From positions 1 through 64,000 of the IMG/VR virus record IMGVR_UViG_3300042314_001187: 64,000 nt of DNA; one strand, written 5' to 3'. The translations under genes and the position numbers were made by a program. Below the pieces are notes generated by a model, which worked only from the letters and a program-made list of their open reading frames with translations, was not told the origin of the DNA and did not search any database. Position 1 is the first letter of the stretch. Each line of letters opens with the position of its first letter. This document shows positions 7,635-40,813 of this stretch, piece by piece. This DNA is from a virus.

Positions 7635-7639
7635 AATAA

Positions 7640-8767
7640 ATGAGTTGTCCATCTACATATTGTATAAGTAATACAAGTTTTTCAACATATAATGGTATAT
7701 ATAATTCTTCAGGAACTTACAACGGTCGTGATTCGTGGTCAGGTCAATCCAACGGATATTATATCTATTTTAACACAGGAACAACTCAATGGTGTTTATC
7801 AAATGTGCTAAACGGAACTTGTCTTTTATCTGGAAAATCACCTTGTAGCTCAAGTTGCCCCGATTTATTTAGTGGTTACTTATCATCAGGTACTTGTCCT
7901 ACACCAACACCAACACCAACTGTAAACTGTTCTGTTTTAGATTTTAATTCTTTTTTTGACTGTGTACCCGTTAATTTTGTCACACCTACACAAACACCTA
8001 CACAAACCAAAACACCAACACCAACACCAACAAGTACCGATTTTTGTGGTTTACTTAACGTTGATGTAACCGTAAATAATGTAACACCAAGTCCAACACA
8101 AACACCAACACAAACACCAACAACATCAAAACCTGTTAATAGAGATAACACATTTAACGGTGACGTAACATTTAACACAATCAACACTAACTTTAATTGT
8201 CCTACTAGTAAACAATTTAGTGATTGTAACGACCCTAACACAACTTACTCAACAACCGACGTTTTAATTGTTCCAAATGGAACACCAATAACTAAATATA
8301 TGGTATTTAACGCCCTTGTTGACGGTGATACTAAATGTATATCATATATTGGATTAACAACCGACATTATTGGGGGTAATTCGATAAGATTAAATTCAAA
8401 CTCATTAGGTTTTTCTAATCTAGGTGGTTGTAGTTTTTGTCAAACAACACCAATGCCAACCCCAACACAAACGATAACCCCATCAAAAACACCAACTCAA
8501 ACCCCAACACAAACGATAACCCCATCAAAAACACCAACTCAAACACCTACACAAACAAATACACAAACTCAAACACCTACACAAACACCTACACCAAGTT
8601 TTACTCCAACTCAAACACCTACACAAACAAATACACCAAGTTTTACCCCTACACAAACAAATACACCAAGTTTTACCCCTACACAAACACAAACACCAAC
8701 TTCAACCCCGTTACCGGGTAATTGTGACTCATCAGGTTATTCTTACATATATTCACCAGCAACTTAA
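7640..8767 (+). CDS. Cysteine-rich tail/adhesin-like protein with Pro-Thr linkers
   Basis: This 375-residue protein has modules joined by Pro-Thr repeats. A Cys-rich N-terminal domain (residues 1-90) carries the pattern YNGRDSW also seen as YNGKQSW in the 360-residue protein at 19050-20132. TPTPTPT linkers follow near residues 90-100, 115-135 and 150-165, then a beta-rich domain of about 100 residues, a long PTQTPTQT/PSKTPTQ block (about 270-360) and a short C-terminal end. Pro-Thr linkers of this sort extend binding domains away from a surface. It lies 5 bases after the previous stop. A role in host attachment is inferred; no catalytic motif is visible. Confidence 0.7.
   Translation: MSCPSTYCISNTSFSTYNGIYNSSGTYNGRDSWSGQSNGYYIYFNTGTTQWCLSNVLNGTCLLSGKSPCSSSCPDLFSGYLSSGTCPTPTPTPTVNCSVLDFNSFFDCVPVNFVTPTQTPTQTKTPTPTPTSTDFCGLLNVDVTVNNVTPSPTQTPTQTPTTSKPVNRDNTFNGDVTFNTINTNFNCPTSKQFSDCNDPNTTYSTTDVLIVPNGTPITKYMVFNALVDGDTKCISYIGLTTDIIGGNSIRLNSNSLGFSNLGGCSFCQTTPMPTPTQTITPSKTPTQTPTQTITPSKTPTQTPTQTNTQTQTPTQTPTPSFTPTQTPTQTNTPSFTPTQTNTPSFTPTQTQTPTSTPLPGNCDSSGYSYIYSPAT
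7900..8713 (+). repeat. Pro-Thr coding repeats in the 375-residue protein
   Basis: Short tandem repeats of ACA/ACT/ACC and CCA/CCT codons encode TPT, TQTPTQ and PSKTPTQ units in four blocks inside 7900-8713; the largest is about 8449-8713. One sub-repeat (acgataaccccatcaaaaac) is present twice nearly side by side at about 8472 and 8514. Synonymous codons vary along the array, so selection appears to act on the protein repeat rather than the DNA. Confidence 0.7.
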
Positions 8768-8794
8768 TTAAGATAAAATAAAAATAATAATATT

Positions 8795-11026: not shown

Positions 11027-11044
11027 ATTTAAAATAATAACATT

Positions 11045-13213: not shown

Positions 13214-13235
13214 TTTTAAATAAATCAACTTTGAA

Positions 13236-13243
13236 ATATTTAT
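13236..13243 (+). promoter_or_regulatory. ATATTTAT box, putative late promoter element
   Basis: ATATTTAT is followed by TATTAAAT and lies 13 bases before the ATG at 13257, within a 43-base intergenic gap. It has the same form as the boxes before six other genes in the window. Confidence 0.4.
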
Positions 13244-13256
13244 TATTAAATATATT

Positions 13257-15896
13257 ATGACATCAATTCAGATTACAGATATTACAGGATTATCATTCCC
13301 ATATAATATATATGTATGTGACGTATTCGGTAATCAATGTATCTTAGTTGCAACAGTTGACACAAACATACCTCCGACTAATCAAATATATTTACCCCCA
13401 TTATTTAACACCGCACCTGCCGTTGGTGTTAGAATAATTTCACACGATTGTGAAAGATTTGAAATAGTTTATTGTTACTTAGTATTAACCAAAACACCAA
13501 CCCCTACCCCAACAATCACTCCTACAGTTACACCATCAAATACTCAAACACCAACAGTTACACCTACGTATACACAAACACCAACAGTTACACCTACGTA
13601 TACACAAACACCAACTCAAACCAATACTATTACACCAACTAATACGGAGACACCAACACAAACACCAACCCCAACTAACACAATTACACCGACTAATACT
13701 GAAACTCAAACACAAACTCCTACTCAAACTAATACTATCACACCAACTAATACTGAAACTCCAACACAAACCCCTACACCAACTAATACTATCACACCAA
13801 CTAATACGGAGACACCAACACAAACACCAACGAATACTATTACACCTACGAACACAGAAACACCAACACAAACTCCGACCAACACAATTACCCCAACAAA
13901 TACAATTACACCTACGAACACTGAAACACCAACTCAAACTCCAACTAACACAATTACCCCAACAAATACAATTACACCTACGAACACAGAAACACCAACT
14001 CAAACGCCGACTAACACAATAACATCAACTAACACTGAAACTCCAACACAAACTCCAACAGTAACTGAAACACCAACTCAAACTCCAACAAATACGATAA
14101 CATCAACTAATACTGAAACACCAACTCAAACTCCAACAAATACGATAACATCAACTAATACTGAAACACCAACTCAAACTCCAACTAACACAATAACCCC
14201 AACTGTTACTGAAACTCCAACTCAAACACCAACAAATACAATAACATCAACTAATACTGAGACACCAACACAAACACCAACAAATACAATAACATCAACT
14301 AATACTGAGACACCAACACAAACTCCGACCAACACAATTACCCCAACAAATACAATTACACCTACGAACACTGAAACCCCAACACAAACGCCGACTAACA
14401 CTGAAACTCCAACACAAACGCCTACAAATACAATTACACCTACGAACACTGAAACCCCAACTCAAACACCGACTAATACGATAACATCAACTAATACTGA
14501 GACACCAACACAAACCCCAACGAATACTATAACTCCAACGAATACTATTACACCCACGAACACTGAAACACCAACTCAAACACCAACAAATACAATTACA
14601 CCTACGAACACTGAAACCCCAACTCAAACACCAACTAATACGATAACATCAACTAATACTGAAACCCCAACACAAACACCAACTAACACAATTACACCTA
14701 CGAACACAGAAACCCCAACTCAAACACCAACTAACACAATTACACCTACGAACACAGAAACCCCAACTCAAACACCAACAAATACAATTACACCAACTAA
14801 TACAGAAACCCCAACACAAACACCAACGAATACTATTACACCAACGAATACAGAAACTCCAACCCAAACTCCAACAAATACAATTACACCAACGAATACA
14901 GAAACTCCAACCCAAACACCAACTAACACAATAACATCAACTGTTACGGAAACTCCAACCCAAACACCAACTAACACAATTACACCAACTAACACTGAAA
15001 CACCTACAAATACCCCAACACCAACTAACACAATTACACCAACTAACACCGAAACACCCACAAATACCCCTACACCAACTAACACAATTACCCCTACTAA
15101 TACTATCACCCAAACCCCTACTAATACTATCACTCAAACACCTACAAATACTATCACCCAAACACCAACAAACACAGAAACTCCGACTCAAACGCCAACA
15201 AATACAATAACACCGACAAATACAATAACATCAACAGTAACTAAAACACCTACCCAAACGCCAACAAATACAATAACACCAACACCAACAACTATTTATG
15301 TTATTGCCGAAGCATACCCTTGTTGTGGGACATACGTCACATATGATGTTATTAGTATTCCTATCACATATGCCGGAGTTGACGCTAATTATGTTGTTGT
15401 CGCAACTAATGGATATTGTTATAAAGTTGGGACATATCCAGCAATAGGTTCACCAACCATTGTTTGGGATAACACTAAACCTGTTTACCCTCAAGTTGAT
15501 GGTGATTTTGATTGCTTATCTTGTACTTCATCAAACCCTTGTCCAACACCGACACCAACACCAACAACAACCAATACTCAAACACCGACAAGAACTGTAA
15601 CTCCGACTAACACCATCACACCAACTAACACCATCACACCAACTAACACTGTTACCCCAACAAATAGTATTACACCAACAAATAGTATTACACCAACTAA
15701 CACACAAACCCCAACAAATAGTATAACACCAACTAACACACAAACCCCATCATACACACCAAGTCAAACCCCATCATACACACCTTCAAGTACACCAACA
15801 CCAACACCTACAACATTGACAGGTAATTTATTATTACTACAGACAGGTGATTACATTATACTACAAGACGGTACAGGATTTATAGAATTACAATAA
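13257..15896 (+). CDS. Giant Pro-Thr repeat (stalk-like) protein
   Basis: This 879-residue protein has three domains separated by repeats. The N-terminal module (about residues 1-77) is paralogous to the 70-residue protein at 7422. About 600 residues of near-perfect TETPTQTPTNTITPTN repeats follow (16-residue period, with some units carrying an extra TITPTN). Then comes a Cys-rich domain (about 680-760, AEAYPCCGTYVTYD), a second Pro-Thr block, and a short hydrophobic C-terminal end (LLLLQTGDYIILQDG) that could be a docking strand. Such Thr/Pro arrays are extended and often O-glycosylated; a glycosyltransferase-like gene lies 5 kb away. It is probably a long, flexible virion fibre. It ends at a strong terminator. 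Confidence 0.72.
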   Translation: MTSIQITDITGLSFPYNIYVCDVFGNQCILVATVDTNIPPTNQIYLPPLFNTAPAVGVRIISHDCERFEIVYCYLVLTKTPTPTPTITPTVTPSNTQTPTVTPTYTQTPTVTPTYTQTPTQTNTITPTNTETPTQTPTPTNTITPTNTETQTQTPTQTNTITPTNTETPTQTPTPTNTITPTNTETPTQTPTNTITPTNTETPTQTPTNTITPTNTITPTNTETPTQTPTNTITPTNTITPTNTETPTQTPTNTITSTNTETPTQTPTVTETPTQTPTNTITSTNTETPTQTPTNTITSTNTETPTQTPTNTITPTVTETPTQTPTNTITSTNTETPTQTPTNTITSTNTETPTQTPTNTITPTNTITPTNTETPTQTPTNTETPTQTPTNTITPTNTETPTQTPTNTITSTNTETPTQTPTNTITPTNTITPTNTETPTQTPTNTITPTNTETPTQTPTNTITSTNTETPTQTPTNTITPTNTETPTQTPTNTITPTNTETPTQTPTNTITPTNTETPTQTPTNTITPTNTETPTQTPTNTITPTNTETPTQTPTNTITSTVTETPTQTPTNTITPTNTETPTNTPTPTNTITPTNTETPTNTPTPTNTITPTNTITQTPTNTITQTPTNTITQTPTNTETPTQTPTNTITPTNTITSTVTKTPTQTPTNTITPTPTTIYVIAEAYPCCGTYVTYDVISIPITYAGVDANYVVVATNGYCYKVGTYPAIGSPTIVWDNTKPVYPQVDGDFDCLSCTSSNPCPTPTPTPTTTNTQTPTRTVTPTNTITPTNTITPTNTVTPTNSITPTNSITPTNTQTPTNSITPTNTQTPSYTPSQTPSYTPSSTPTPTPTTLTGNLLLLQTGDYIILQDGTGFIELQ
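13494..15293 (+). repeat. Tandem Pro-Thr coding array, 48-base unit
   Basis: About 1.8 kb encodes repeats of the consensus TETPTQTPTNTITPTN (16 residues, 48 bases), with 60-66-base variants that duplicate the TNTITPTN part. Identical blocks recur with small codon changes (for example acaccaactcaaactccaac many times), consistent with repeated expansion by recombination followed by synonymous drift. The array may vary in length between phage isolates. Its reverse strand gives spurious open frames. Confidence 0.85.
15545..15815 (+). repeat. Second Pro-Thr coding block
   Basis: About 270 bases encode TPTPTPTTTNTQTPT, then TPTNTITPTN and TPTNSITPTN repeats, ending in QTPSYTPSSTPTPTPT. It lies between the Cys-rich domain and the C-terminal end of the 879-residue protein. 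Thr and Pro codons vary among units as in the larger array. Confidence 0.75.
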
Positions 15897-15997: not shown

Positions 15998-16597
15998 TTA
16001 CCAAATTTTAAGTTGTTTCATAAATCCTAAAACACAACAATAAGCATCTGTTTGGTCAAAATTTTCTTTTTTCAATGTATTATTTTTAGTATATAACCAC
16101 TGTATCTGTGGTTCTCGTTTTGCAACCTTTTCCCAAACAATCATTTTCTTATCAATATCTTTAGGTAACCCACCAAATAGAACAAATTTACCTTTATCAT
16201 TTTCTTGAACTAATTCAGGAAAAGCATTTTTTCTTGACTCATATGTTGAAATGAAATCCGGTATAATACCTAATGTGTCGTAAATTACTTTACAAACAAA
16301 ACTATTAAATCTTAATAACGTTTGAACTGTTCGGATATTATTTGAATTTAATAATGGTTCTTCTATTATTATTTTAGTAATTCCTAATCCTTTATATTGT
16401 TCTAACTTTGTTTTAAAAATGTCACTTTTAAGTAACAATTCCTTAATTTTACACTCTTCTTTTGGTTTTGGGACTGGCGATATGTGTGTCAATTCTAACA
16501 AATCACCACTTTTAATTTCGAACAACGCCCATCCAATAGTTTTTGTTGAGATATCAAGTCCCAATACTTTGGGACTTTCTTTTAAAGTTTTTCTCAT
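15998..16597 (-). CDS. RuvC-like Holliday junction resolvase
   Basis: This 199-residue protein has an RNase H fold. Acidic catalytic positions appear in the expected order: D15 in VLGLDISTKTIGW, E79/E80 in KIIIEEPL, and D181 and D184 in NFDQTDAYC near the C-terminus. This matches RuvC-type resolvases, which cut four-way junctions to release branched replication products before packaging. T4 itself uses the unrelated endonuclease VII. I chose the ATG at 16597 because it follows the upstream stop by one base (TAATATG); the frame extends four codons further to 16609, into the upstream gene. It is the last gene of the long minus-strand tail run. Confidence 0.82.
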   Translation of the reverse strand: MRKTLKESPKVLGLDISTKTIGWALFEIKSGDLLELTHISPVPKPKEECKIKELLLKSDIFKTKLEQYKGLGITKIIIEEPLLNSNNIRTVQTLLRFNSFVCKVIYDTLGIIPDFISTYESRKNAFPELVQENDKGKFVLFGGLPKDIDKKMIVWEKVAKREPQIQWLYTKNNTLKKENFDQTDAYCCVLGFMKQLKIW

Positions 16598-16598
16598 A

Positions 16599-19031
16599 TT
16601 AAAAATCAAATTTAATTAAAAACTGTTGAATCCCTTGTCTTAAAACGGGAGACTGTAGTTTTGATACAATCATAAGATTTTTATCAGAATCGTAAAGACC
16701 AAGTTCAGTAATATATGGTTTTGTTCCCGTATTCCACGTAGGATTTGATGAGGTCTGAAATTCAGAGTTAGATAAATTCAGTTTATAGACCATTTCATAT
16801 ATGGTCGCTTGTATATCAGTTTCTAAAGACCCATAGAAATAATATTCATCACCAAAGTTTAATTGTAGTCCCGTAGAACCTTCCTGTGTAATATCAATAT
16901 AATCACCTAAATCATAAATATCATTTACCGCAGCATCATACAATTCTTTAGTAATAACAAATGTACTACCAGTAATTGCATCCTGAGTAATGTAACCATT
17001 GATTGTATTTGCACTTAAAACATCAGTCATATCAATAACCCTCCAACTATCAGATTGTGGTCGATTACCTGTTGTAACTTTTTGACAAATAATTTCAATT
17101 TTTTCAGCAAAAAATCCTTGTTTAAACGTATCTTCGTAATAATCCAAACAAGGGAAACCTGTACTAAATCTAACACCAACATTCTCAGAGTTTGAAGGGT
17201 TACAAACAACATCAGGTCCGGTTATTTTTGTATAATAATTACAATGTAATGAATTTGTAAATGCCGTTGTATTTGTAAACCTATACGTAACAAACATAGT
17301 CTCATTTGAATTTGTTAAAACACCTAATGAACTACCTAAACTATTACAAGTGTTAGGTGTTGATAAAAATAATTTAGGTGCCGGTAAAGTCCAATTTCGA
17401 TTTGATTTATAAGACATTGCAGCCAATAATTCTTCGTCATCTATAATGATAATCCTATCATCAGGGAAGACTTTTCCAACTCTGTTAGGATAACCATCAG
17501 GATTTATATTTGTATCCCATAAATGATAATATCTAATACCCGGTGAATTCATATCCTCATTCTTAGTTGATTGTATATATCGTTCTTGAAATAACACAAC
17601 ACTAGGGTCTTCAAACCCTGGAGGGTCAACCCAAAAAGTTTCACCCATACAACATTCAGGATTTTTATGCCACATTAACCAAGGCAAATGTAATTTAAAA
17701 TTCCTTGCTTGTCCCGTAGTATCATAAGGAGCCGTTGGGTCATATGGTTGTAACGCGAATTTTTCCCCATAGAATAAATCAATTGTTTGATTTGTATAAT
17801 GAATTATACCAATCGCCTTTTGTTCTTCAGGTTCAACTTTAACAATTTCCGCAAATGAATTGTAATAATACGTATCCGTAGTTTCTGCACTAAATTGATT
17901 ACTTATGAAAAAAGTTTGTCCACTATTTGACATATAACCCAAATATTCTTTAGTTCCCAAATAATTAACCGAACCAAATTGTGGGTAATCTTTATAAACA
18001 CCCGAATCTAATCCAGCTAAATTTTCAGACCAAGGAATATTCATATTCCAAACTTTAACGTCAAACTCATCTTGAGAACAAACCGATTCAAAATTAATGA
18101 TATCATCATTATAATGATTCAATGGAGTTATACTATCATATAAATCAGTCATTTTTTTAGGATAAACCAACGCCCTCGCATAACAACTCACGAATGTAAT
18201 ATTTGAAAAGTCAGGAGTAGTTCTATCTAACGTTATTTTATTACCACACACATCAACTATCCTATACGTTAATATTGAATAACAAGACGCCATTGACATC
18301 ACACATTCAGTTTTTAATGGTGCCGGTGTTGGGTCGGGACAATAAGATGCCGAAGGTGATGGTGTAGGTGTAGGTGACGCACAAGGACTACCTGGTGATG
18401 GTGGTGCCGATGGGGTTGGTGTTGGTGTTGAGTACATACTCGGTGTTGGTGTTGGTGTTGGTAAATTTTCACACCCACAATTTGACGCACCTAAATTATC
18501 TATGTATAACGTAATAAAATCACCCCTTTCAAATTGAGTATACTGAACGGGATTACAAGAGTCATTTAATAATTGTAGTGTCGTCCCACCTGTAAAACTA
18601 GACATATTAACAACATAATTTGATGTTTTAACATAATCATTACCAGTTGATGCACTCCAACTAGTTGGTAAAACACTTGTATCACCTGTGAAAAAACCTC
18701 TCATAGCCGCAGTATTATAAATTGGACTTATAACAGAATCCATATATGGTATACCATAAGTGTTTCCATTATTACCATCAACATAATACGGATATTTAAC
18801 GTTTTGTTTATTCGATTCAGGAACACCACTAGAATTCTGAGCGTTAAAACCTGATTCTAATATCATAGTATTACTGATTAAATAATTCGAGGGTAATGTG
18901 TTATACAACATTTCACTATCCCCTACTTGGAAAAAACTAATATTAAACTTACCTTGTGACAACATTTGTCTTGCGGTATCTGTTAATTTACTATTTATTA
19001 ATCCTGTTGTATTTTTTAAAATATATCCCAT
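16599..19031 (-). CDS. Virion structural protein (tail/fibre type) with Pro-Ser-Thr linker
   Basis: This 810-residue protein begins with a region typical of phage tail or neck proteins (GLINSKLTDTARQMLSQGKF... then FQVGDSE). A linker near residues 190-235 (TPTPTPS, APPSPGSPC, PTPTPSPS) resembles the linkers of the plus-strand adhesins. Several Cys-containing beta domains follow. The C-terminus (ITELGLYDSDKNLMIVSKL) resembles the N-terminal domain of tail-collar fibre proteins. It is separated by 18 bases from the upstream gene and coupled to the RuvC-like gene. A fibre or fibre-attachment role is likely; its exact place in the virion is unknown. Confidence 0.7.
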   Translation of the reverse strand: MGYILKNTTGLINSKLTDTARQMLSQGKFNISFFQVGDSEMLYNTLPSNYLISNTMILESGFNAQNSSGVPESNKQNVKYPYYVDGNNGNTYGIPYMDSVISPIYNTAAMRGFFTGDTSVLPTSWSASTGNDYVKTSNYVVNMSSFTGGTTLQLLNDSCNPVQYTQFERGDFITLYIDNLGASNCGCENLPTPTPTPSMYSTPTPTPSAPPSPGSPCASPTPTPSPSASYCPDPTPAPLKTECVMSMASCYSILTYRIVDVCGNKITLDRTTPDFSNITFVSCYARALVYPKKMTDLYDSITPLNHYNDDIINFESVCSQDEFDVKVWNMNIPWSENLAGLDSGVYKDYPQFGSVNYLGTKEYLGYMSNSGQTFFISNQFSAETTDTYYYNSFAEIVKVEPEEQKAIGIIHYTNQTIDLFYGEKFALQPYDPTAPYDTTGQARNFKLHLPWLMWHKNPECCMGETFWVDPPGFEDPSVVLFQERYIQSTKNEDMNSPGIRYYHLWDTNINPDGYPNRVGKVFPDDRIIIIDDEELLAAMSYKSNRNWTLPAPKLFLSTPNTCNSLGSSLGVLTNSNETMFVTYRFTNTTAFTNSLHCNYYTKITGPDVVCNPSNSENVGVRFSTGFPCLDYYEDTFKQGFFAEKIEIICQKVTTGNRPQSDSWRVIDMTDVLSANTINGYITQDAITGSTFVITKELYDAAVNDIYDLGDYIDITQEGSTGLQLNFGDEYYFYGSLETDIQATIYEMVYKLNLSNSEFQTSSNPTWNTGTKPYITELGLYDSDKNLMIVSKLQSPVLRQGIQQFLIKFDF

Positions 19032-19049
19032 TTTTTATTTTTTTTATTT

Positions 19050-20132
19050 TTAACTTCTAGTATAGAAGTATTCCCAATTTGATACCGAACAACAAATACA
19101 ACCTTCAATATTTAGACCTGTAAGACTATATTTATTTGTTGTTGAGAAATAAGCATTACAACAATTTAAAGCAGTATTCGACTGTTGAAAACTTAAAGGA
19201 CCTAACGATAATGTCGATGGTGCAGGATTACTACAGGTTAATTGATATGTTGGTATTACCGTAATTTCATAGGTATCTGAATTAGTATACGATAAATTAG
19301 TATAATTATACTCATATTCAGTAGTATATAATTGAAATTCTTGACACGATGGTGAGGTATTTGTTGTTGTTGTTGTTGCAGTATTATCCGTATAGTTTGT
19401 TATTACAACACCATTCTTTTTAACTTGAGGATTAAATGACGATGTTGCCGAATTCGAATACGGTGATTTAACAAATGTACCTCCAAGATTTAAGTTAAAA
19501 TTAATACTAACACCATTAGGTAATGGTGGTGTCACAGTAACACTATATTTAAATTCTTCAACTCGTGGATTATTTACAGTTATCACTGTTGAACTTATTT
19601 CTGTTAACTTAATAACGTAATTAACTGATTCTATTAGAGCCGGAATTTCAACTAATTTACTAAAAATTGTACCTTCACTATCCTTAATCTTAACTGTTAA
19701 ACTTAAATCACCACACAAACCATCTTTAAATGGTGAATTACCATATGTAACACCATTATCGAATGAATACTGATACGGTGGTTGACCCCCTTCACCATAA
19801 AGAGTGATATTAGCATCACATTCACAAGACGGGTTATTTTTAACAACAATCATTGTTAATTCTTCATTATCTGAACATTCACCCTGTGTTGCAGTTATTT
19901 CATATTCCCTACCAACCCAAGTCCAATTCCCATTAATTGGTGGACTAGCGGGATTAATATTTATTACAGTATCAAACAAATTATATGTTGTACTAGAAAA
20001 TCTCCAACAATTTGGTGTTAATGTTGTATCCCAAATTATTTTAATTTGAGTATCATCCGATAACCACGATTGTTTACCATTATAATACCCATCACAATTA
20101 AAATGGAACTTATCTAAATCAAAAAAATACAT
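19050..20132 (-). CDS. Tail adhesin-like protein with SprB-like module
   Basis: This 360-residue protein starts MYFFDLDK, sharing its first six residues with the 339-residue protein two genes upstream. Residues about 14-60 contain YNGKQSW, matching a domain of the 375-residue plus-strand protein. A Cys-flanked module near residues 108-165 contains GGQPPYQYSFDNG and a KDSEG turn, the pattern of Bacteroidota SprB adhesin repeats. The C-terminal half is beta-rich with a Thr-rich loop (TATTTTTNTS) and seven cysteines near the end. No enzyme motif is visible. It is probably a fibre or host-contact protein. Confidence 0.68.
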   Translation of the reverse strand: MYFFDLDKFHFNCDGYYNGKQSWLSDDTQIKIIWDTTLTPNCWRFSSTTYNLFDTVININPASPPINGNWTWVGREYEITATQGECSDNEELTMIVVKNNPSCECDANITLYGEGGQPPYQYSFDNGVTYGNSPFKDGLCGDLSLTVKIKDSEGTIFSKLVEIPALIESVNYVIKLTEISSTVITVNNPRVEEFKYSVTVTPPLPNGVSINFNLNLGGTFVKSPYSNSATSSFNPQVKKNGVVITNYTDNTATTTTTNTSPSCQEFQLYTTEYEYNYTNLSYTNSDTYEITVIPTYQLTCSNPAPSTLSLGPLSFQQSNTALNCCNAYFSTTNKYSLTGLNIEGCICCSVSNWEYFYTRS

Positions 20133-20172
20133 TTATATTTAAATCTTATTTATCATTTATCGTCGTCTATTA

Positions 20173-20541
20173 TCAATAATATCCACCCGTATCAATGGGT
20201 GTAAAATCCAAACAGAAATCAACACAAGGTGGTAATGTTGTTGTTGTTGTGGTTGATGTTGTTGTCGTGGTTACACTTAACACACAAGTACTTTTAATGA
20301 CATAATCACCATTTGAATCTGTAACAGTTGCGGTATATGACCCAACACTTAAATTAGTAATTGTTTGTGTTAGACTACCATTAGCCCAAGTTATTGAATA
20401 TGGCGGCGTACCACCATTGATAACTAAACTAGCAATACCATCTGACGCAGTTATTGTCGACGGATTTGTCGAATTACAAGTAACAGACATTGGGAATATT
20501 GTTAATACCCCACATTGATTCCTATTTGTTGATTCTGGCAT
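20173..20541 (-). CDS. Small SprB-repeat protein with poly-Thr linker
   Basis: This 122-residue protein contains one nearly canonical SprB-type repeat (GGTPPYSITWANGSLTQT, then NLSVGSYTATVTDSNG; about residues 38-80), followed by a linker of some fifteen Thr/Ser residues and a Cys-rich C-terminus (CVDFCLDF). SprB repeats are characteristic of Bacteroidota gliding and adhesion proteins. The gene lies between the glycosyltransferase-like gene and the 360-residue adhesin. A TTATTTAT box precedes the start by 17 bases. It is probably a minor virion decoration or fibre component. Confidence 0.68.
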   Translation of the reverse strand: MPESTNRNQCGVLTIFPMSVTCNSTNPSTITASDGIASLVINGGTPPYSITWANGSLTQTITNLSVGSYTATVTDSNGDYVIKSTCVLSVTTTTTSTTTTTTLPPCVDFCLDFTPIDTGGYY

Positions 20542-20553
20542 AAATTATATTAT

Positions 20554-21543
20554 TTATAATAAATAATCAGTTTTTTGGTTTTTTATCAATGATTTCATAA
20601 CATCCACATACTTTTTTGTTGAACTATTATCTTCTATGTAGTCAAAATAATTATCATCCTCACTTAAAAGTTTAAGTGGGTTAACATTTATAAATTCACC
20701 TTTATAAAATTTGGTTTTACTTAAATCGTAAGTAACTCCAGCCATATGTAATATCGGTTTATTTTCATATTGTTCTATGGTGTCCGTAGCCCAAGAAAAC
20801 GATAATTTTTTAGTGACACGTGTTTCATTACCTCTTAACCAAAGATTCCATAATACCGCCCACATATCTGAAGTCCACATTTGAATCTCGTGCTGAATGG
20901 GATGAGTTTTATGAAAGTTAAATAACATTTTGTACAAATTTTCACTATCTTCAAAAACTTTCTCCCAATACAAATAATCAGTATTTTTAATTAGATATTG
21001 AGCACCTCCAGAATTAAGTTGATTTTCTTTAACAATCTCAGGTGATATTCCAATAACGTTACACATCCTGTCTAATAATTCACCTTCATATAATTGAATA
21101 TGGTTATCCTCATAACGTTTTGAACATTCTTTAATGTAATCATACCCAATGTATGAGATAGTGTCCGACAAATAACTAAAATCGTCATTTAATAGACTCT
21201 CAAAATCCGGTAACTCCCTAAAAATAATATCAGAATCGTGATAAAAATAACATTTACCTAATTCAGGGTATTCTTTTAACCATTTAGATAAAATTAAAGG
21301 TCTTAAAGTCGGGATATATCGTTTATCAATTCGAGTATCTTCATAATGATGAACATTAACCCCTAATTGTTTTAACATTAAAGATTCTTCACTAGGTTGA
21401 GAACCATTTAAAATAACAAACAAAACATGAATTTGATGAGGTTTAACCCCATTACTAATAAAATTATATATGTAAATTTTAGTTTGCCAATGAAAATACG
21501 AAATGTCAGGTTGTGCAGATACAAAAACTAATTCATCAATCAT
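20554..21543 (-). CDS. Glycosyltransferase-like protein
   Basis: This 329-residue soluble protein shows a GT-A-like layout: an N-terminal alternating strand/helix region, a DxD-type metal/nucleotide-sugar motif in YFYHDSDIIF (D103-S-D105), and a later NSGGAQYLIKN segment typical of sugar-binding loops. GT-A enzymes transfer sugars from nucleotide donors. The gene is inside the tail/adhesin cluster, flanked by SprB-repeat proteins and near Thr-rich proteins, so modification of virion proteins is an attractive but unproven role. Modification of host surface glycans is an alternative. The exact GT family is not recognised. Confidence 0.6.
   Translation of the reverse strand: MIDELVFVSAQPDISYFHWQTKIYIYNFISNGVKPHQIHVLFVILNGSQPSEESLMLKQLGVNVHHYEDTRIDKRYIPTLRPLILSKWLKEYPELGKCYFYHDSDIIFRELPDFESLLNDDFSYLSDTISYIGYDYIKECSKRYEDNHIQLYEGELLDRMCNVIGISPEIVKENQLNSGGAQYLIKNTDYLYWEKVFEDSENLYKMLFNFHKTHPIQHEIQMWTSDMWAVLWNLWLRGNETRVTKKLSFSWATDTIEQYENKPILHMAGVTYDLSKTKFYKGEFINVNPLKLLSEDDNYFDYIEDNSSTKKYVDVMKSLIKNQKTDYLL
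20559..20566 (-). promoter_or_regulatory. TTATTTAT box, variant of putative late promoter element
   Basis: On the minus strand, TTATTTAT followed by TATAAATAA lies 17 bases before the ATG at 20541. It differs from the (A/C)TATTTAT set at the first base and overlaps the 3' end of the glycosyltransferase-like gene. The adjacent TATAAATA equals the T4 late promoter box, but it lies only about 10 bases from the ATG. Confidence 0.3.
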
Positions 21544-21582
21544 AATATTTTTTATTTAAAAAATATTAAATATATTTGATAA

Positions 21583-22602
21583 TTAAATATCAAACGTTGG
21601 AAACGTATCTCCATCAACACATTTTATTAACTGTTTTAATAAACATTGTTGGTGATACATATTTTGCACAAAAGTATTAAAATTAGCTTGTGTAGTATTT
21701 GCAAAATTATTTCCAGCATCAACCCAAAAATTCGACACACTTTGAGTTGTTGTTATAAATTGATTATAATACGTATCACATTGAGGACAAGCTTTTGGTG
21801 ATGTTACACTACCAGTACCCATAAATTGCCAATTTTGACCGTTTAAATCACCTCTCCATACTTTACTAGTTGTTGATGACGATTGAGCAACATTAGTTAC
21901 ATTATATGGTCCTGCACTACCTCTTAGGTTTGATTTTGCTCTAGTTTCAAACCATTGATATTGACTATCTCTATAAAAGTTAGCTAACCAAGACGATGAG
22001 GTTGTTGTTGAACCAGCAATACCACCTTCAACTAAAATTTTAGTATAACGTTTTGCACCACCTATAGTGTCATTGTCTGATTTAACGTAAAGATTTTGTG
22101 TACTACCGTCAGTATTAGTTAGTCCAGGTTCTAACCAATTATCGCCAGGATTTCCACACAAAATTGCCGGTAAAGGTGAATTAGTTGGTGTAGTAACCAC
22201 ATTTCCACGACCACTACCTAACATAATATAACCATTAGTACTTACATAAAGAGCATTGGATGCTACACCCGCCATTTTATATGTTGTTGATAATCCTATT
22301 GGTGTGTCAGTCCAACCATTGTCAAACGTCGAAACAGTTCCATTTGTAAACCCACCATAATATGTATCATAATTATCATAATTTGAGGGCCAAACTAAAT
22401 TTAGACTTGAGTCATATTGATACGTAAATGATGTAGTATTGGAATTTTCATACCAATCCGTAACAGCATCTAATAACGCATCTTTAAACGTCATAAATGA
22501 AATACCAAAATCCTGCCAACCAAGAGGTTCTCCAAATAAATCTATAGAATCAGACCCAATTGCCTGTTTAATACACCAATCTTCTAAATCAAAAAAATAC
22601 AT
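21583..22602 (-). CDS. Tail protein sharing the MYFFDL N-terminus
   Basis: This 339-residue protein begins MYFFDLEDW, matching the first six residues of the 360-residue adhesin. A 20-base stretch over this start (tctaaatcaaaaaaatacat on the plus strand) is identical in both genes. The rest is Ser, Thr, Asn, Gly and Trp-rich with a beta-sheet character, for example STNGYIMLGSGRG near residue 125, and ends in a Cys-containing segment (CPQCDTYYN, QQCLLKQLIKCVDGD). It may be a fibre or lectin-like protein anchored through the common N-terminus. No catalytic motif is recognised. Confidence 0.65.
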   Translation of the reverse strand: MYFFDLEDWCIKQAIGSDSIDLFGEPLGWQDFGISFMTFKDALLDAVTDWYENSNTTSFTYQYDSSLNLVWPSNYDNYDTYYGGFTNGTVSTFDNGWTDTPIGLSTTYKMAGVASNALYVSTNGYIMLGSGRGNVVTTPTNSPLPAILCGNPGDNWLEPGLTNTDGSTQNLYVKSDNDTIGGAKRYTKILVEGGIAGSTTTSSSWLANFYRDSQYQWFETRAKSNLRGSAGPYNVTNVAQSSSTTSKVWRGDLNGQNWQFMGTGSVTSPKACPQCDTYYNQFITTTQSVSNFWVDAGNNFANTTQANFNTFVQNMYHQQCLLKQLIKCVDGDTFPTFDI

Positions 22603-22625
22603 ATTTTAGTTTATTTAAAATTTTA

Positions 22626-24770
22626 TTAACTTGTCTCACAAGATATTTCGTAATTGATTTTTAATTTAACTAAGATATTAGAATCTAATAAATTAACATC
22701 TGAACCACAATCAGATGTGATAGTAATTTTATTGGTGTTTGTATTAATTGTAACATTACCAATACCATCATAACCCAACAATAAATTTCTAACAGTAGTT
22801 GCAAATAATGTCTCACTTGGTGCGTCCGTTAATGATGTAGTCGTATAAAATATTAAACTTTCAGTTACCTCATTAACAATTGTAATTGCTTCAAAAGTAG
22901 CTTCATTTAAAATACAATTATTTTCATCAACAGTTAAATCCACATAACCTTCATTTAACATTAATATCGGTGTTTTTTCAAGTAATTCACCATTATTCAT
23001 AAATTCACTATCACATAAATTATAAATACCATAAGTAATTGCACAATTTACACCAACTAACACTATAGTCCTAATTTTAATACAACCATTATTATCAGTT
23101 ACTTTAGCCGTATATGTTCCCGCTGACAAACTTGTTACAAGTAAACCCGTCTGACCGTTAACATTATCACTCCATTCTATAGTGTAAGGAGCTTTACCTT
23201 TTGTTATAAACAATTGAATATAACCATTATTTGATGAATTCGCATTACCAGAATTATAAATGAAATCAACACCCTCTGAACTATTAACTAACACTGTTGA
23301 AGACTGAATACAATTTTCACCTGTATCTGTAACATTAACGGTGTAACTACCTGAAGGTAATGAACTAAATGTTGCGGTAGTTAAATTTGTCTCTATACTC
23401 TCACCATTCAATTCATACACATATGGGCCTGAACCACCAACAACATTAATTTTTACAATACCATCATTTTTAGAACAAGTTGTACCCGTTACTACAAAAG
23501 TAAATGTGAATACTTCTTCATTTAATATTTCATATTGATTAACATATTGACATCCACTACCGTCCGTAATTGAAAAAGTGTATGTATCGGAAGCCAATTG
23601 TGTAAAAGTGTATGTTGGTAGTGTCGTACTAATTGAATTCTCAACACCCGTTGTGTTAACTAACTTGTACACATATGGTGGTGTTCCTGATGAAATATTA
23701 ACATTTAATGTCCCTTGATTATTACCACACGATGAATTAGTTGTAGTTATTGACACAATATTAAATGATGATGGTGTGATTAACGCAACACTACTAATAA
23801 ACGAACATAATCCAGCATCCTGAACAAAATAATTAAAGTTACCAGCACCCAATCCATTAAAACTAATTGTCCTATCAAAAGTTACTGAGGTAGTACCGTT
23901 TGAACCCGAATAGAAAAATGGTGGAGTTCCACCTGAAAGTATTATTTCAATTGACCCATTATTACCAAAACAAGATGGTTGAGTCACAAAAAGACCCGCT
24001 TGTCCAACTAACGGAACTTTTAACACATCCGCAGTTTTAACAACAACACAACCTGAATTGTCACTAACAGTTACACTATAAGACCCCTGAGTTAAACCAC
24101 TTATTGACGATGTTGTTTTACCATTCGACCATAAATAAGTGTAAGGTGGTGAACCATTAATATTATTAATAAAAATTTTACCCGAATTAACGTTACAACC
24201 GGCATCATTAACAACATACAAATCATAATCTAAATTTGTCGAATCTTGGATAATAACACTATTTGTTGTTGCAGTACAACCACCATTATCAACAACTTTC
24301 ATATAATACGTTCCGGCACTTAACCCTTGAAATGAACGTCCTGACACTAAATTCGTTGTTCCCGATGTAATATAACCTAAAGTTGTGTGATATAGATAAT
24401 ATAAATTACTACCATAATCATATTGCGTGTAAGCACTTAGTGAACCATTGTTTAAATCACAAACAGTGTTAGTCACACCTGTTATTGTTGTACATAACCC
24501 ACTTGACACATAAATTGACGCTATCTGACTTTGATTTTCAGGGTCAATACAACTATCTTTAATTAAAAATGAGTACGTTCCAGCGGTTAAAGATGTTGCA
24601 GTGTACGCTGTAACTCCCGGTCCTAAAAAAACAGTACTTAAAGGTGGATTTACCCACTCAATTCTATAATCAGGAGCACTTCCTGTAATTGTAATACTGA
24701 ACGAACCACCACTAATATTACTACAGTCACCTGTTACACCAACAAGACTATAATTTAAACTACAACTCAT
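22626..24770 (-). CDS. SprB-repeat adhesin-like tail protein
   Basis: This 714-residue protein consists of about seven consecutive modules of some 75-85 residues. Each has a Cys near the start, the turn GGTPPY, NGSPPY or SGTPPYVY, a W/Y-S-N-G hairpin, L-x-x-GTYS and a V-x-D-x-x-GC end. Examples are NGSPPYTYLWSNG and LTQGSYSVTVSDNSGC. This is the SprB repeat pattern known from gliding adhesins of Flavobacterium. A distinct C-terminal domain of about 140 residues follows (from CAITYGIYNLC). Its start overlaps the stop of the 1024-residue gene (TAATG). A host-contact fibre is the likely role; a decoy or receptor mimic is an alternative. Confidence 0.75.
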   Translation of the reverse strand: MSCSLNYSLVGVTGDCSNISGGSFSITITGSAPDYRIEWVNPPLSTVFLGPGVTAYTATSLTAGTYSFLIKDSCIDPENQSQIASIYVSSGLCTTITGVTNTVCDLNNGSLSAYTQYDYGSNLYYLYHTTLGYITSGTTNLVSGRSFQGLSAGTYYMKVVDNGGCTATTNSVIIQDSTNLDYDLYVVNDAGCNVNSGKIFINNINGSPPYTYLWSNGKTTSSISGLTQGSYSVTVSDNSGCVVVKTADVLKVPLVGQAGLFVTQPSCFGNNGSIEIILSGGTPPFFYSGSNGTTSVTFDRTISFNGLGAGNFNYFVQDAGLCSFISSVALITPSSFNIVSITTTNSSCGNNQGTLNVNISSGTPPYVYKLVNTTGVENSISTTLPTYTFTQLASDTYTFSITDGSGCQYVNQYEILNEEVFTFTFVVTGTTCSKNDGIVKINVVGGSGPYVYELNGESIETNLTTATFSSLPSGSYTVNVTDTGENCIQSSTVLVNSSEGVDFIYNSGNANSSNNGYIQLFITKGKAPYTIEWSDNVNGQTGLLVTSLSAGTYTAKVTDNNGCIKIRTIVLVGVNCAITYGIYNLCDSEFMNNGELLEKTPILMLNEGYVDLTVDENNCILNEATFEAITIVNEVTESLIFYTTTSLTDAPSETLFATTVRNLLLGYDGIGNVTINTNTNKITITSDCGSDVNLLDSNILVKLKINYEISCETS

Positions 24771-27700
24771 TAATTACAACATAAATTTAAATTTATTCCA
24801 ACATTAATTTTAAAATTCAACCCCTGACTGTTTTCAGAACATATTGAATTATATATAATTACCTTACCATCATTAGTTAATGTATAACTATATCCATCAC
24901 TCTCTAAATCATCTAAGGCAACAACTAAAGCGTTATACCATTGAGTATTAGTTGGTGAACTAAACGCCAATACGTTATAACCAGAACCATTAAAAAACTT
25001 ATTTTGTATTATAATAGAGTCATTTAATCGTAAGTCAACATACCATTCAGTTTGAAGTGCGTTTAAATTACAATTATCAGCCGTTTTATCAATTGAGGTT
25101 AAATAATCATTAATCACTTTACCTAAAACACCTGAAAACGTCGTAATAGTATTACTTGTTCCTGATGGATATATAGAACACTCAACACTTTGGATAGGAC
25201 AATCTATCGGTAAAAAGTTACTAACGGTAGCACAAGGTTTACAAGGTACTGGCACTATTATACAACCTCTTTGTCTTCTCCAAGCATGTTTTTGTCTATG
25301 AAAAACTGAATTTTCGTATTTAACACCTGTTGTCCATATTGTTGTTGCCGGTATCATTTGTTCAACTAACCTAATCCAATAATCACCTAAACCATTTACA
25401 TATTGTATCATTGTATCATATGTAAAATTATTATTGGTTACCCCAATTGCCTTCTCAGATAGTAAATATTTCCAATAAATCGACTCTAAAGTTGGATAAC
25501 CCATTGATTTACCGTTAGTCATATATTGTCTATTTCTAACGTTAATCATATTTTTCCAAAATGATTGAGCAAATTCAAAAAACGTTTGTCTTTTTGGTTT
25601 TGGGTCGATTTCAGTCCAATCAACACCACCCTTCATTGGATATTGAACATTAGGAAATGACGATTGAAATTGAGTATTACTCATTTTCATATTATTGGTT
25701 GAGTATGGCGTTGGATTACAATGTGTCGGAGCAATGTAGAATAACCCCTCATTCGGTATAGGATAATTCACCTCTCTTGACATATACCACACGTCATAAA
25801 CCAAACCTTGAGCCGGATTCATATGTAAATCAATATTCTTAACATTTAAAACTAATTTTTCATCGTCAACAATATATTTTGAGTTGTAACCCCCATCTAA
25901 ATTAGCTCTAGTACCAACTTCGTTGATTACCCAACTTTTATTATTATCAATAGTTTTAGTTAAATTATACCCTAATGACATAAAAGGAAATCTTCTAAAT
26001 CTATCAAGATAAACTTGACCGTAAGTATAAGGAATTAATGAAGTTTGATAGTCAGGATTTGACCCAACAAAAGTATTACTTGTTCTCTTAATATCTTCCG
26101 GAGCTCTATGAGCCGGTGTTTGTTCAAACCATCCACTACCAATTTGGAAATAATAACTTTCACTATCATCAGGAGCTATCGGATAACCATAGTCATCCAT
26201 CGGAAATTCATTTCTCGTTAATGACACGTCTTTTATCGAAAATTCTGTGGTAACACCTGTATATGTAACACCTTGAAATGTGAACACGTCATTAGCATCT
26301 AACACAATTTTTTGTTCAACATAAGTACCACCTGAAATTTGAGCAAATTGTGAATTAAATTGACGTAAATTAATTGGTCTATCAACTAAATAAACATGTT
26401 CGTTAAATTCAACTAAAGCATCAGGAGCACCAATCAATCTCATTAAAGTCTCAACGGATTTACGAGTACCTTTTGATTTAAACAAATAAGCAGAATTTAA
26501 TATTAAATTTCTGAAATATTGATAATTTAACTCATCAGGTGTTAACGCGGTTTTAACTCCCGAAAATTGAGATTTATCTTGATTTTTTTCACCAAATACT
26601 GACTTTAAAAAATCCTCTTTAGTAATTGGGGATATATTAGTATTCCAACCTAATGTTTGGGCTAAATTTTTAAGTAATTGTGAAGGTATATCATTACCCA
26701 CATTATAATTAACTGAATTCATATACGCCAAAGCGTCTATGAATTTTTTAGTTTCATCAAAACTTCTACCGTATATCTGTAAAGTCTTTTCAGTTTTTTG
26801 CCCTATGGTATCAAACTCTTTAAATGAACCCGTAGTTAAAAACCTTGATATTAAATTTGTTTTATACCCGTCAATATTTTCAACAACATCATTTAGTTGT
26901 GTCAAATATAAATTAAAAGAACCTGTCATAATATCAATATTCCAAGTTCCATTTAAAGGCCAAGTCAATTTTTGTTTTGTTGAGATATAAGTACCATCGT
27001 CATTTTCAACAGGAACAGTAAAATTACTAGTGTATATTGGAGTACTCTGTCTATTCAATAAAAATTTCTCAACCTCATCAAAATTTTCATTAAAAACTTT
27101 ACTAACCTCATAATCGTTAGGTCTAATAACTATATTCTGAAATACCTCAGTATTATCACCAAATGGTTTACCACTTACCGAAACAGTTAACGTTCCGGTT
27201 GTTAATGAGTTTGTTGGTTGGATAAAGATAATATCACAAACTTCATTTTGGTAATACATCAAATATTTACTATATTCAACAGTTAAATTCCTTAATGGTG
27301 ATACAGGTATTTCTCTTAACTCTAAGTTTCTAGTCGACTCATTTGTAAAATCAATATCAAACTGATTTCGTATTCTTGTAATATCTAAATCAAATGTGGT
27401 AGTATTGTTTAACTTATTATAAACTATGTTACTAGCCGTTTTACCTGTAACATAATTAACCCCCACAAATGTTGACTCAATTGCTGCTGGGAAATAACTT
27501 ATTATTTTTTGAACTGATACCGAAATTCTTTTAGTTAAAGAACCATACATCGTAAAGTTAGTAACTTGACTTAAATCAAAATTTGGATATACCTTGAAGT
27601 TGGCTTCAAATACTTGTTTTGATTGTGCAATATCACTTAAACCTAAATTAGTTAGATTTATTGGTTCAGAAAATGTTCCCGTAATAAAATTACGGTTTCT

Positions 27701-27844
27701 CTTTTCTGTAATTGATGTTACAAAATTAAAATTCCCCTGTGTTAATCCACCACCCTGAACTAATTGGAATCCAACTAAATCGTCAGAGAATGTACCAGCT
27801 CCTGAAGCTGGTGTTGGGGGACAAGTATATTTTTTAATCGCCAT
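24770..27844 (-). CDS. Large baseplate/tail protein, gpI-like region
   Basis: This is a 1024-residue structural protein. Around residues 440-475 it contains YFRNLILNSAYLFKSKGTRK followed by SVETLMRLIGAPD, resembling the P2 gpI / tail protein I signature in which a KGT helix joins the wedge to the next layer. The C-terminal 130 residues include a Cys-rich segment (CIIVPVPCKPC) and a separate beta domain ending NLNLCCN. Both ends overlap neighbouring genes by TAATG junctions. It is probably a baseplate wedge or fibre-connector protein made from the gp25-gp6 transcript. The gpI resemblance is by eye and needs a profile search. Confidence 0.6.
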   Translation of the reverse strand: MAIKKYTCPPTPASGAGTFSDDLVGFQLVQGGGLTQGNFNFVTSITEKRNRNFITGTFSEPINLTNLGLSDIAQSKQVFEANFKVYPNFDLSQVTNFTMYGSLTKRISVSVQKIISYFPAAIESTFVGVNYVTGKTASNIVYNKLNNTTTFDLDITRIRNQFDIDFTNESTRNLELREIPVSPLRNLTVEYSKYLMYYQNEVCDIIFIQPTNSLTTGTLTVSVSGKPFGDNTEVFQNIVIRPNDYEVSKVFNENFDEVEKFLLNRQSTPIYTSNFTVPVENDDGTYISTKQKLTWPLNGTWNIDIMTGSFNLYLTQLNDVVENIDGYKTNLISRFLTTGSFKEFDTIGQKTEKTLQIYGRSFDETKKFIDALAYMNSVNYNVGNDIPSQLLKNLAQTLGWNTNISPITKEDFLKSVFGEKNQDKSQFSGVKTALTPDELNYQYFRNLILNSAYLFKSKGTRKSVETLMRLIGAPDALVEFNEHVYLVDRPINLRQFNSQFAQISGGTYVEQKIVLDANDVFTFQGVTYTGVTTEFSIKDVSLTRNEFPMDDYGYPIAPDDSESYYFQIGSGWFEQTPAHRAPEDIKRTSNTFVGSNPDYQTSLIPYTYGQVYLDRFRRFPFMSLGYNLTKTIDNNKSWVINEVGTRANLDGGYNSKYIVDDEKLVLNVKNIDLHMNPAQGLVYDVWYMSREVNYPIPNEGLFYIAPTHCNPTPYSTNNMKMSNTQFQSSFPNVQYPMKGGVDWTEIDPKPKRQTFFEFAQSFWKNMINVRNRQYMTNGKSMGYPTLESIYWKYLLSEKAIGVTNNNFTYDTMIQYVNGLGDYWIRLVEQMIPATTIWTTGVKYENSVFHRQKHAWRRQRGCIIVPVPCKPCATVSNFLPIDCPIQSVECSIYPSGTSNTITTFSGVLGKVINDYLTSIDKTADNCNLNALQTEWYVDLRLNDSIIIQNKFFNGSGYNVLAFSSPTNTQWYNALVVALDDLESDGYSYTLTNDGKVIIYNSICSENSQGLNFKINVGINLNLCCN

Positions 27845-38434: not shown

Positions 38435-40273
38435 TCAACTAAAATTAGTTACTGATAGATTCTTAACTCGAATATTAATATCGTTATTTGGATATCTAAT
38501 TTGGTACGTTTGACTTGGTTCTGCAAATATAGTTTCATCAATTAATTCAATTTCTCTAGTGTCTTTATCAAGATATCTTTGTGATGTTTGAGATGATGAG
38601 TATTGACCACCAACTTTATTAAATACTGATATACCAGCAACACTAACAACACCGTTAGTTGCTTGAATTAATCGTCTAATTTCAGAGACATTAACATTTT
38701 CACCCATTTGTCTATTACCTGGTTCAAAATAATCAGATACTATATTAATTACTTGAGTAATTAATGAACCTTGGTTTTGACTACTCTCCAAAACAACATC
38801 AATAGTAAAAGACAAATCAATAACATTAGCCACCTGAACCGAAATATAATCATTCATCATTCGATAGTTAGATAAGTAATTAGCCACATTATTTTTTAAT
38901 GTGTCAGAAACAATTTCAGTTAACTTACCATTCTCATCATATGATAACATTTTAATAACAACTTTGTTGTTTTCTTCCGTAATCGCAACTTTAGCAGGAG
39001 CACCAAATTGTGATGGCATTGTTCTAATTAAAGAATCATAATCGTTAACCGTAACTGCCCTGTTTTGAGCTGAGAAGTTAAACGCCACTAAGTTTCTAAC
39101 CTCTTCAATTGTTGGATAATCAGCTCCACCAATAGCCGCAGTTACGTTATTACAAGACAATGAGTTAACAACATTCGTGTTTACTGACTCAGATGGTCCG
39201 TTAACGAAAAATGATACAGTCCCAATTTGTGTAATAACATTAACACCCAAATTACTAACTTGACCTCCACCAACTCTATACTGAACGAATAGTGTTGTAT
39301 TTGATTTTAATGTACTACCTAACGCAAAGTTATTTGAATATTTGTATAAATTTAGATTATATCCGTTTCTAGCAAACTCTCTTAATTGTTCATCAGCAGA
39401 TTGATTACCACCTCCAAATGTCATTTTAAAATAACCTTCAGGTGTGAATTCAGTTATAAATTTATCATTTACCGACAAATATTTACCAACTTTAATACCA
39501 GGACTATCAGACACTTTAGTTGGGTCTTCAACGAATACTCTGTCTTCCGCCAACGCTTTAACCTCATACCATCTATTATCAAGCCCCAAAAACTCTTGGT
39601 TTGAAGGGACATTACCATATTGTGTTCCGTCTTTTAATAAAACACTTGTGACCCCCAAAACATTTTTGTCAGGTAAAAACACTTCATAGAAAGGTTTAAC
39701 ATCATTAGGTGTTATAACTTTTTTATATACTTTTGTAACTCCATTAACTACCGTCTCTCTTTTAACAATCGTATAATTTATTAACTTATTATTAGAGTCG
39801 AAATTAGGTATTTTTAAACGATTAGGAAAACCATCACCACTAATTGGTGATGCAAAATCAATATCATACACAGTTTCAAAAGCTTGTCCAGCACCATTCA
39901 CCTGAGAACCTCGTCTTAATATACCACAGTATCTTAAATCTTCTTTATCTCCGTAAGCCGGCACTGTAATTGATAAATCCACCAACGCAACTGAGGGTCT
40001 TTGACCCGGTATTTTTAAACCATAAGTTCTTGCGATATTATATATTGAAGACCTTTGTTGTGCAAATTGTAAAACCGTTTCTTGAATACTTCTATCAATA
40101 TTGAAGTGTAAGTTATCAGTAACTGCCGCGTTCAAATCTAAGAACACCGAGAAAATCGCCGCGTCATTAACGTTCTCAATTAAATCAGGATAATACGTTC
40201 TTGTAAAATTAATTAACTCAGTTCTTATTGACTGAAAATCTCTTGTAGTATACGAAATCTTTTTATTAGCCAT
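38435..40273 (-). CDS. 6: Baseplate wedge protein gp6-like (baseplate J family)
   Basis: This 612-residue protein resembles gp6/baseplate J proteins, which form the wedge ring that triggers sheath contraction. Recognisable parts: the N-terminal YTTRDFQSIRTELINFTRTY with YPDLIENVNDAAIFSVFLD, a helical SIYNIARTYGLKIPG segment, a central beta domain, and the C-terminal half with RAVTVNDYDSLIRTMPSQFG, the J-family signature near residue 405. It is close in length to T4 gp6 (660 residues). It follows gp25 through a TAATATG junction, and the gp25-gp6 order is conserved in many contractile systems. Confidence 0.88.
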   Translation of the reverse strand: MANKKISYTTRDFQSIRTELINFTRTYYPDLIENVNDAAIFSVFLDLNAAVTDNLHFNIDRSIQETVLQFAQQRSSIYNIARTYGLKIPGQRPSVALVDLSITVPAYGDKEDLRYCGILRRGSQVNGAGQAFETVYDIDFASPISGDGFPNRLKIPNFDSNNKLINYTIVKRETVVNGVTKVYKKVITPNDVKPFYEVFLPDKNVLGVTSVLLKDGTQYGNVPSNQEFLGLDNRWYEVKALAEDRVFVEDPTKVSDSPGIKVGKYLSVNDKFITEFTPEGYFKMTFGGGNQSADEQLREFARNGYNLNLYKYSNNFALGSTLKSNTTLFVQYRVGGGQVSNLGVNVITQIGTVSFFVNGPSESVNTNVVNSLSCNNVTAAIGGADYPTIEEVRNLVAFNFSAQNRAVTVNDYDSLIRTMPSQFGAPAKVAITEENNKVVIKMLSYDENGKLTEIVSDTLKNNVANYLSNYRMMNDYISVQVANVIDLSFTIDVVLESSQNQGSLITQVINIVSDYFEPGNRQMGENVNVSEIRRLIQATNGVVSVAGISVFNKVGGQYSSSQTSQRYLDKDTREIELIDETIFAEPSQTYQIRYPNNDINIRVKNLSVTNFS

Positions 40274-40274
40274 A

Positions 40275-40733
40275 TTATAAATTTATAATAACAAAATCAC
40301 TTGAGTTGAACGCGTCATCGTTTAACAAGTAATCAATTTTAATTTTTGCAGTGTGTTCTTTTGTCCCGATACCTGGCACTCTAAAAACTCGTTCATCATT
40401 ACCATTAACAAACGTTCCTTTATCTTCCTCACCCTCTGACGCTGGTGTTACCTCTAATTTAGTAATTGTAATACCGGGAATATATTCTTTAACAGAATCC
40501 CTAATTTCAGATTCTATTTGTGAAAAAGTTGGTCCATCTAATGGTTCAAATAAATACTCATATAATCTTGTCCCAAAATCAGGTAAATAATATCTAGTAC
40601 CTTTTCTCGTTAGTAATAAATGAATTAGATTTGAACGTATTTCTTCCCTATTCGTGTTTGATAAATCAAGATATTTACCATCATACGAATCCCTAAAGGG
40701 AAAATTAATACCATATGTTAATCCTTCTGCCAT
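40275..40733 (-). CDS. 25: Baseplate wedge protein gp25-like
   Basis: This 152-residue protein of the GPW/gp25 family forms the inner baseplate wedge with gp6 and gp53. It begins MAEGLTYGINFPFRDSYDGK and shows the family core: NREEIRSNLIHLLLTRKGTR, then YYLPDFGTRLYEYLFEPLD (about residues 28-70), followed by the beta-rich C-terminal part. The frame is open to 40799, but a start there would lie inside the nrdA terminator hairpin and adds unconvincing residues, so 40733 is chosen. An ATATTTAT sequence lies only 5 bases before this ATG. Confidence 0.9.
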   Translation of the reverse strand: MAEGLTYGINFPFRDSYDGKYLDLSNTNREEIRSNLIHLLLTRKGTRYYLPDFGTRLYEYLFEPLDGPTFSQIESEIRDSVKEYIPGITITKLEVTPASEGEEDKGTFVNGNDERVFRVPGIGTKEHTAKIKIDYLLNDDAFNSSDFVIINL

Positions 40734-40784
40734 ATAACATAAATATAATGTCGTTATGAATTTTTTGTATAACGTTCTAAAATA

Positions 40785-40813
40785 AAAAACTCTCGACATT
40801 GCCGAGAGTTTTT
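40785..40813 (-). terminator. Intrinsic terminator after nrdA
   Basis: An 11-base perfect stem (AAAAACTCTCG, 40785-40795, with CGAGAGTTTTT, 40803-40813) has a 7-base loop. On the minus strand it is followed by a T-run. It lies 17 bases past the nrdA stop and just before gp25, ending the helicase-nrdB-nrdA transcript. Confidence 0.88.

Follow-up and report, generated by a model that had tools for sequence, protein, structure and literature searches.

The SprB proteins of Bacteroidota are exported T9SS adhesins, and the locus described here raises the question of what modules of this type do in a phage, encoded directly behind baseplate genes. The window, meaning the whole analyzed stretch of 64,000 nucleotides (positions 1 to 64,000 of the IMG/VR virus record IMGVR_UViG_3300042314_001187), belongs to a record of 131,650 bases that probably represents only part of a jumbo-phage genome. 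The original prediction, made from the sequence alone, recognized SprB-like modules in proteins of 714, 122, and 360 aa next to baseplate genes and suggested that the phage either took host adhesin modules for its fibres or imitates or binds the gliding machinery.

Modules of the 714-aa protein and their origin

The 714-aa protein, a putative SprB-repeat fibre protein, is encoded on the minus strand (22626..24770) and consists of seven modules and a C-terminal domain. Judged by its profile match, it is a bona fide SprB-repeat protein, as PF13573 scores 88.9 bits (E=1.5e-25) and thereby lies above the curated cut-off of 28 bits. A search of the whole virus record yielded seven SprB matches, five of which fall separately into the 714-aa protein (24.7 to 42.6 bits) and one each into the 360-aa and the 122-aa protein; none was found in the genome-wide PF13573 search of 14 control genomes. 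The module count is nevertheless set at seven, since both an alignment of 17 sequences and the AlphaFold2 (AF2) model show seven, in agreement with the “about seven” initially proposed. Modules 1 and 2 have diverged too far for Pfam detection, but are alignable across 17 relatives and Ig-like in the structure prediction, which was computed for monomers only and returned seven Ig-like modules at a mean pLDDT of 81.

All modules lie on the minus strand. Module 1 (24501..24761; AF2 strands 5-88) begins with a conserved TGDCSN motif and is followed by module 2 (24237..24497). Module 3 (24018..24230; 31.6 bits) is a canonical SprB repeat containing PPYTYLWSNG and is nearest to the bacterial modules, module 4 (23766..24008; 42.6 bits) is likewise canonical, and modules 5 (23520..23765; 27.5 bits), 6 (23277..23516; 27.9 bits), and 7 (23049..23270; 24.7 bits) complete the array. 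A conserved alpha/beta domain, delineated by hhalign and AF2, forms the C-terminus (22629..23048), behind which the variable tips of relatives are attached; the window protein has no such extension. Among PDB structures, the model is closest in fold to pieces of GhpA, the grappling-hook protein of Aureispira (E 5.5e-19), which shares the Ig-like fold.

The presumed Bacteroidota affinity of the repeats was borne out by a bacterial search with a one-module alignment and phage-derived patterns, in which all 80 of the best 80 matches kept for module 3 belong to Bacteroidota. The phage core thus resembles the SprB adhesins of this phylum in its PF13573 modules and in its nearest bacterial modules among the best 80 listed; it differs in that it holds seven fixed modules in ~713 aa, while bacterial frames contain up to 38. 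A phylogeny built from 119 modules of phages and 80 of bacteria places positions 1-5 and 7 in pure clades (support 0.90-0.99) apart from the 80 bacterial modules, whereas position 6 is split and the phage modules together do not form one clade. With few exceptions, a phage module resembles its counterparts at the same array position in distant phages more than it resembles modules from other positions or from bacteria. Given this grouping by position, which extends across distant phages, the seven-module array is old and has been inherited vertically and as a whole across a large phage family. A recent capture from the host was considered and rejected, as the modules cluster by position and not with bacterial ones.

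Neighbourhood of the fibre gene and the extent of the family

The baseplate-gene neighbourhood that was initially claimed holds on closer inspection: a gp25-like baseplate wedge gene (40275..40799, minus strand; PF04965, E 6e-12) and a gp6/J-like wedge gene (38435..40273, minus strand; PF04865 and phrog_219) lie upstream on the same strand, followed by five more genes, the gene for a 1024-aa protein and then the SprB gene. The SprB gene is therefore distal to the gp25/gp6(J) baseplate genes, as expected of a phage tail fibre. The 1024-aa baseplate-operon protein (24770..27844, minus strand) is encoded directly upstream of the SprB gene in all of the 80 best relatives. Its C-terminal domain (24773..25132, minus strand) is homologous to that of the 714-aa protein (hhalign probability 96.1, E 3.6e-9), with direct profile matches down to 4e-7 and a common H-E-E-H-E-E-E order in both AF2 models. 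Apart from this domain, where pLDDT is about 80 locally, the model of the 1024-aa protein is poor. In a distant relative (L142), a 2038-aa homolog of the protein itself contains an SprB-like module at its C-terminus (residues 1908-1990, E 1.3e-10). Pfam and PHROGs offered no identification of the 1024-aa protein; comparisons with T4 gp7 and P2 gpI were not significant and revealed no detectable relationship. A weak profile match (E 3.1e-5, probability 73) connects it to a 1265-aa protein encoded downstream of gp6 in Flavobacterium phage immuto.

Relatives were collected with the gp6/J-like protein as bait, giving 80 loci, and 50 records were searched with PF13573. Matches over the cut-off were obtained in 25 of these 50 records, and the contigs that lacked one are mostly truncated. 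Among contigs that continue for about 16 kb or more beyond gp6, SprB modules are present in all 11 with a gp6 at least 61% identical and in 11 of the 13 with a gp6 53-58% identical, two with a single module. Phage immuto, which is distantly related and has the same gp25-gp6 order, gave no SprB match in the PF13573 search. An alignment-based search places relatives of the 714-aa protein in at least 407 IMG/VR viral contigs; the detailed family counts refer to the best 80 of these, which have full length and of which about 56 are non-redundant. The SprB proteins of relatives are 35-52% identical to the window copy, and their 1024-aa neighbours 44-74%. A search of 50,697 GenBank phage records revealed no ortholog of the 714-aa protein. 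A fold search retrieved the UniProt entry A0A6J5LD72 (714 aa, 34% identity, E 4.5e-61), which probably belongs to the same family; it and A0A6J5LDA4 are named “SprB repeat [uncultured Caudovirales phage],” these being database names only. Four contigs of relatives (L187, G021, L165, and L229) measure 318, 296, 282, and 272 kb. The 296-kb contig shows no exact terminal overlap that would establish circular closure, circularity being suggested only by a gene split across its ends.

Constant core, variable tips and the downstream fibre block

In all of the 80 best relatives, the seven modules and the C-terminal domain form a core of ~713 residues (710-737 aa). Behind this core, 55 of the 75 complete relatives carry an extension of at least 20 residues (range 20-788), which is missing in the remaining 20. 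These tips have no BLAST similarity to each other in many pairs whose cores are 72-85% identical, so that the SprB protein family displays the combination of a conserved part and a variable distal part which is expected of tail fibres. Even the closest relatives of the window protein (L154 and L155; 81-82% core identity) have tips of 286-292 residues. P/T-rich linkers were recognized by a simple pattern in 36 of 60 extensions, and the tips match DUF285 (leucine-rich repeats), Fib_succ_major, and beta-propeller domains. One tip (L163:10001-13186) resembles by eye a Hint/intein-type domain (CFIKGTKITLASG...), possibly self-processing, and was not reported by Pfam.

Fib_succ_major tips occur in some relatives (L178, L213). 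In phages of Bacteroides uniformis, variation linked to host range is directed at this domain, and the proteins concerned are varied by a diversity-generating retroelement (PMC8143477). Unlike in those phages, no reverse transcriptase was found in any of 48 records, many of them fragments, nor in G000, and retroelement-driven tip variation was rejected as an explanation on this ground.

Further SprB modules are found in the genes that follow. The 122-aa protein (20173..20541, minus strand) comprises one module and a T-rich linker; its PF13573 score of 15-17 bits (16.8 in the whole-record search) is under the Pfam cut-off, and the assignment is backed by a comparison within a set of 12 proteins, in which 47 aa align to module 3 of the 714-aa protein at 47% identity (E about 3e-10). 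The 360-aa protein (19050..20132, minus strand) combines a W-rich domain, one module (match at 19746-19844; 21.5 bits, E=3.6e-5 in the whole-record search, again under the cut-off), and a C-terminal beta region; hmmscan reported nothing for it at E<=1. In several relatives the pair is represented by one ORF (e.g., 442, 473, or 561 aa), with the 122-aa protein corresponding to its N-terminal and the 360-aa protein to its C-terminal part, and these single-ORF counterparts reach 35-42 bits and exceed the cut-off. The single repeats originally read in both proteins are thereby corroborated.

The same cluster encodes an 810-aa putative tail-fibre protein (16599..19031, minus strand), whose C-terminus matches proteins of phage immuto (25.6 bits) that adjoin the immuto tail fibre/spike genes. 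A 329-aa protein (20554-21543, minus strand; phrog_4417), conserved in the fibre cluster, contains an HDSDIIF motif which by eye is glycosyltransferase-like and could serve to modify T/P-rich linkers; no profile or PDB match confirmed this identity. The fibre block ends with a gene for a RuvC-like Holliday junction resolvase (15998-16609, minus strand; phrog_159, E 2.3e-5). Beyond it, a block of five ORFs on the opposite strand (7422-15896, plus strand) probably holds additional fibre or tip genes, including one for an 879-aa protein (13257-15896, plus strand) made mostly of (PTNT)n-type repeats.

Among the relatives (L154-L231), the downstream fibre block as a whole (15998-21543, with the genes for the 329-, 360-, and 810-aa proteins and a ~200-aa protein) runs parallel to the SprB gene in 31 cases and is inverted in 31. 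Its orientation looks like a stable lineage trait, because the closest relatives with opposite orientations share only 62% core identity; rapid inversion of the block was discarded for the same reason.

A tail-fibre stalk and its alternatives

Taken together, the 714-aa protein is quite probably the stalk of a tail fibre whose relatives bear exchangeable receptor-binding tips, the window copy being one without a tip. The seven Ig-like modules would form a rod, and the C-terminal domain, which recurs in the adjacent 1024-aa protein, would close the core and serve as a hub. Most relatives would contact the host through an exchangeable tip fused behind this hub, often via the P/T-rich linkers; in the present phage, this role would presumably be taken by neighbouring proteins of 339, 122 plus 360, and 810 aa. 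We infer that the fibre is part of the virion, that it has the corresponding polarity on the particle, that it binds a receptor, and that its host is a member of the Bacteroidota, the phylum which is probably also host to the phage family. The use of Bacteroidota-type adhesin modules for fibres appears well supported owing to the affinity of the modules, the position behind the baseplate genes, the domain shared with the baseplate-operon protein, and the combination of constant core and variable tip. This part of the original proposal stands, while the phage does not seem to have taken the modules recently from its current host, given the age and vertical inheritance of the array.

The main rival reading is prompted by the best named sequence matches of the 714-aa protein, which are Hoc-like and neck-whisker Ig proteins: its best PHROGs Ig matches are labelled “Hoc-like head decoration” and its best PDB sequence match is the neck whiskers protein gp24 (22.9 bits). 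As a Hoc-like or whisker-like decoration of the head or neck, it would promote attachment of particles to surfaces or to glycans of the host. Such matches may, however, reflect the Ig fold alone, and a decoration is rather unlikely in view of the invariable position of the gene directly after that of the 1024-aa protein (80/80 relatives), the C-terminal domain common to both proteins, and the SprB module fused to the 1024-aa homolog of L142. An adhesin exported to the surface of the infected cell, where it would mediate aggregation or superinfection exclusion instead of joining the virion, would follow the precedent of the bacterial SprB proteins and of two “huge phage” assemblies. In the latter, LR756502 (L011:10849-15861) and LR745206 (L012:9077-11275), the SprB proteins possess CHU_C and signal-peptide-like hydrophobic N-termini and are, by these features, exported host-type adhesins. 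The window protein and its relatives, in contrast, have no signal peptide according to hydropathy and inspection without a dedicated predictor (a hydrophobic start in four relatives reads as the first beta strand), and Pfam scans detected no CHU_C as T9SS C-terminal sorting domain in any of them, Por_Secre_tail giving only a sub-threshold match inside the repeats. Unlike the gliding adhesin SprB, the phage protein is moreover locked into a structural operon, that of the baseplate, and secretion as a surface adhesin is accordingly very unlikely.

The gliding machinery itself, whose imitation or binding by the phage gained no support from this analysis, enters the remaining alternatives. In some flavobacteria, mutants in gliding motility resist phages (PMC13288928, PMC7345892), and this resistance, together with the identity of the modules, would fit SprB modules acting as functional mimics, by which the fibre engages host gliding adhesins or their track, allowing the phage to dock on the moving machinery of the cell surface or to ride on it. 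Against such mimicry, which is highly improbable, stand the divergence of the modules by position from the bacterial ones, the lack of any link between the modules and Gld/Spr proteins, and the fact that exchange happens in the tips and not in the modules. Hardly less doubtful, and still very unlikely, is a variant in which a stalk built from the gliding-adhesin array of the host phylum interacts with the moving SprB/T9SS machinery by docking or riding, while the tips give strain specificity.

In the open literature that was searched, no paper describing SprB repeats in phage tail proteins was found. The closest precedent that came to light is an array of BACON repeats in crAss-like phages, whose tail-associated proteins contain tandem BACON domains proposed for host binding (PMC6949934). 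In both cases, tandem repeats of Ig-like type that are associated with Bacteroidota occur next to phage tail genes, but the two cases differ in domain family and phage family, the present one having contractile-tail-type baseplate genes and contigs of up to 318 kb; no BACON domain was matched in Pfam scans of the window protein and its relatives. The constant core with interchangeable C-terminal tips further sets the SprB proteins apart from the BACON repeat proteins.

These findings suggest that an old adhesin array has become a tail fibre whose tips can be exchanged, and they define a likely receptor-binding fibre for a large family of uncultured phages. A bacterial adhesin module would thus have become fixed as a probable structural part of a phage, constant in its stalk and interchangeable in its tips, providing a second case, beside the BACON proteins of crAssphage, of Bacteroidota phages with Bacteroidota-type Ig repeats in tail-associated proteins. 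The conserved core may serve as a marker gene for such phages in metagenomes, and the tip as a readable candidate element of host range.
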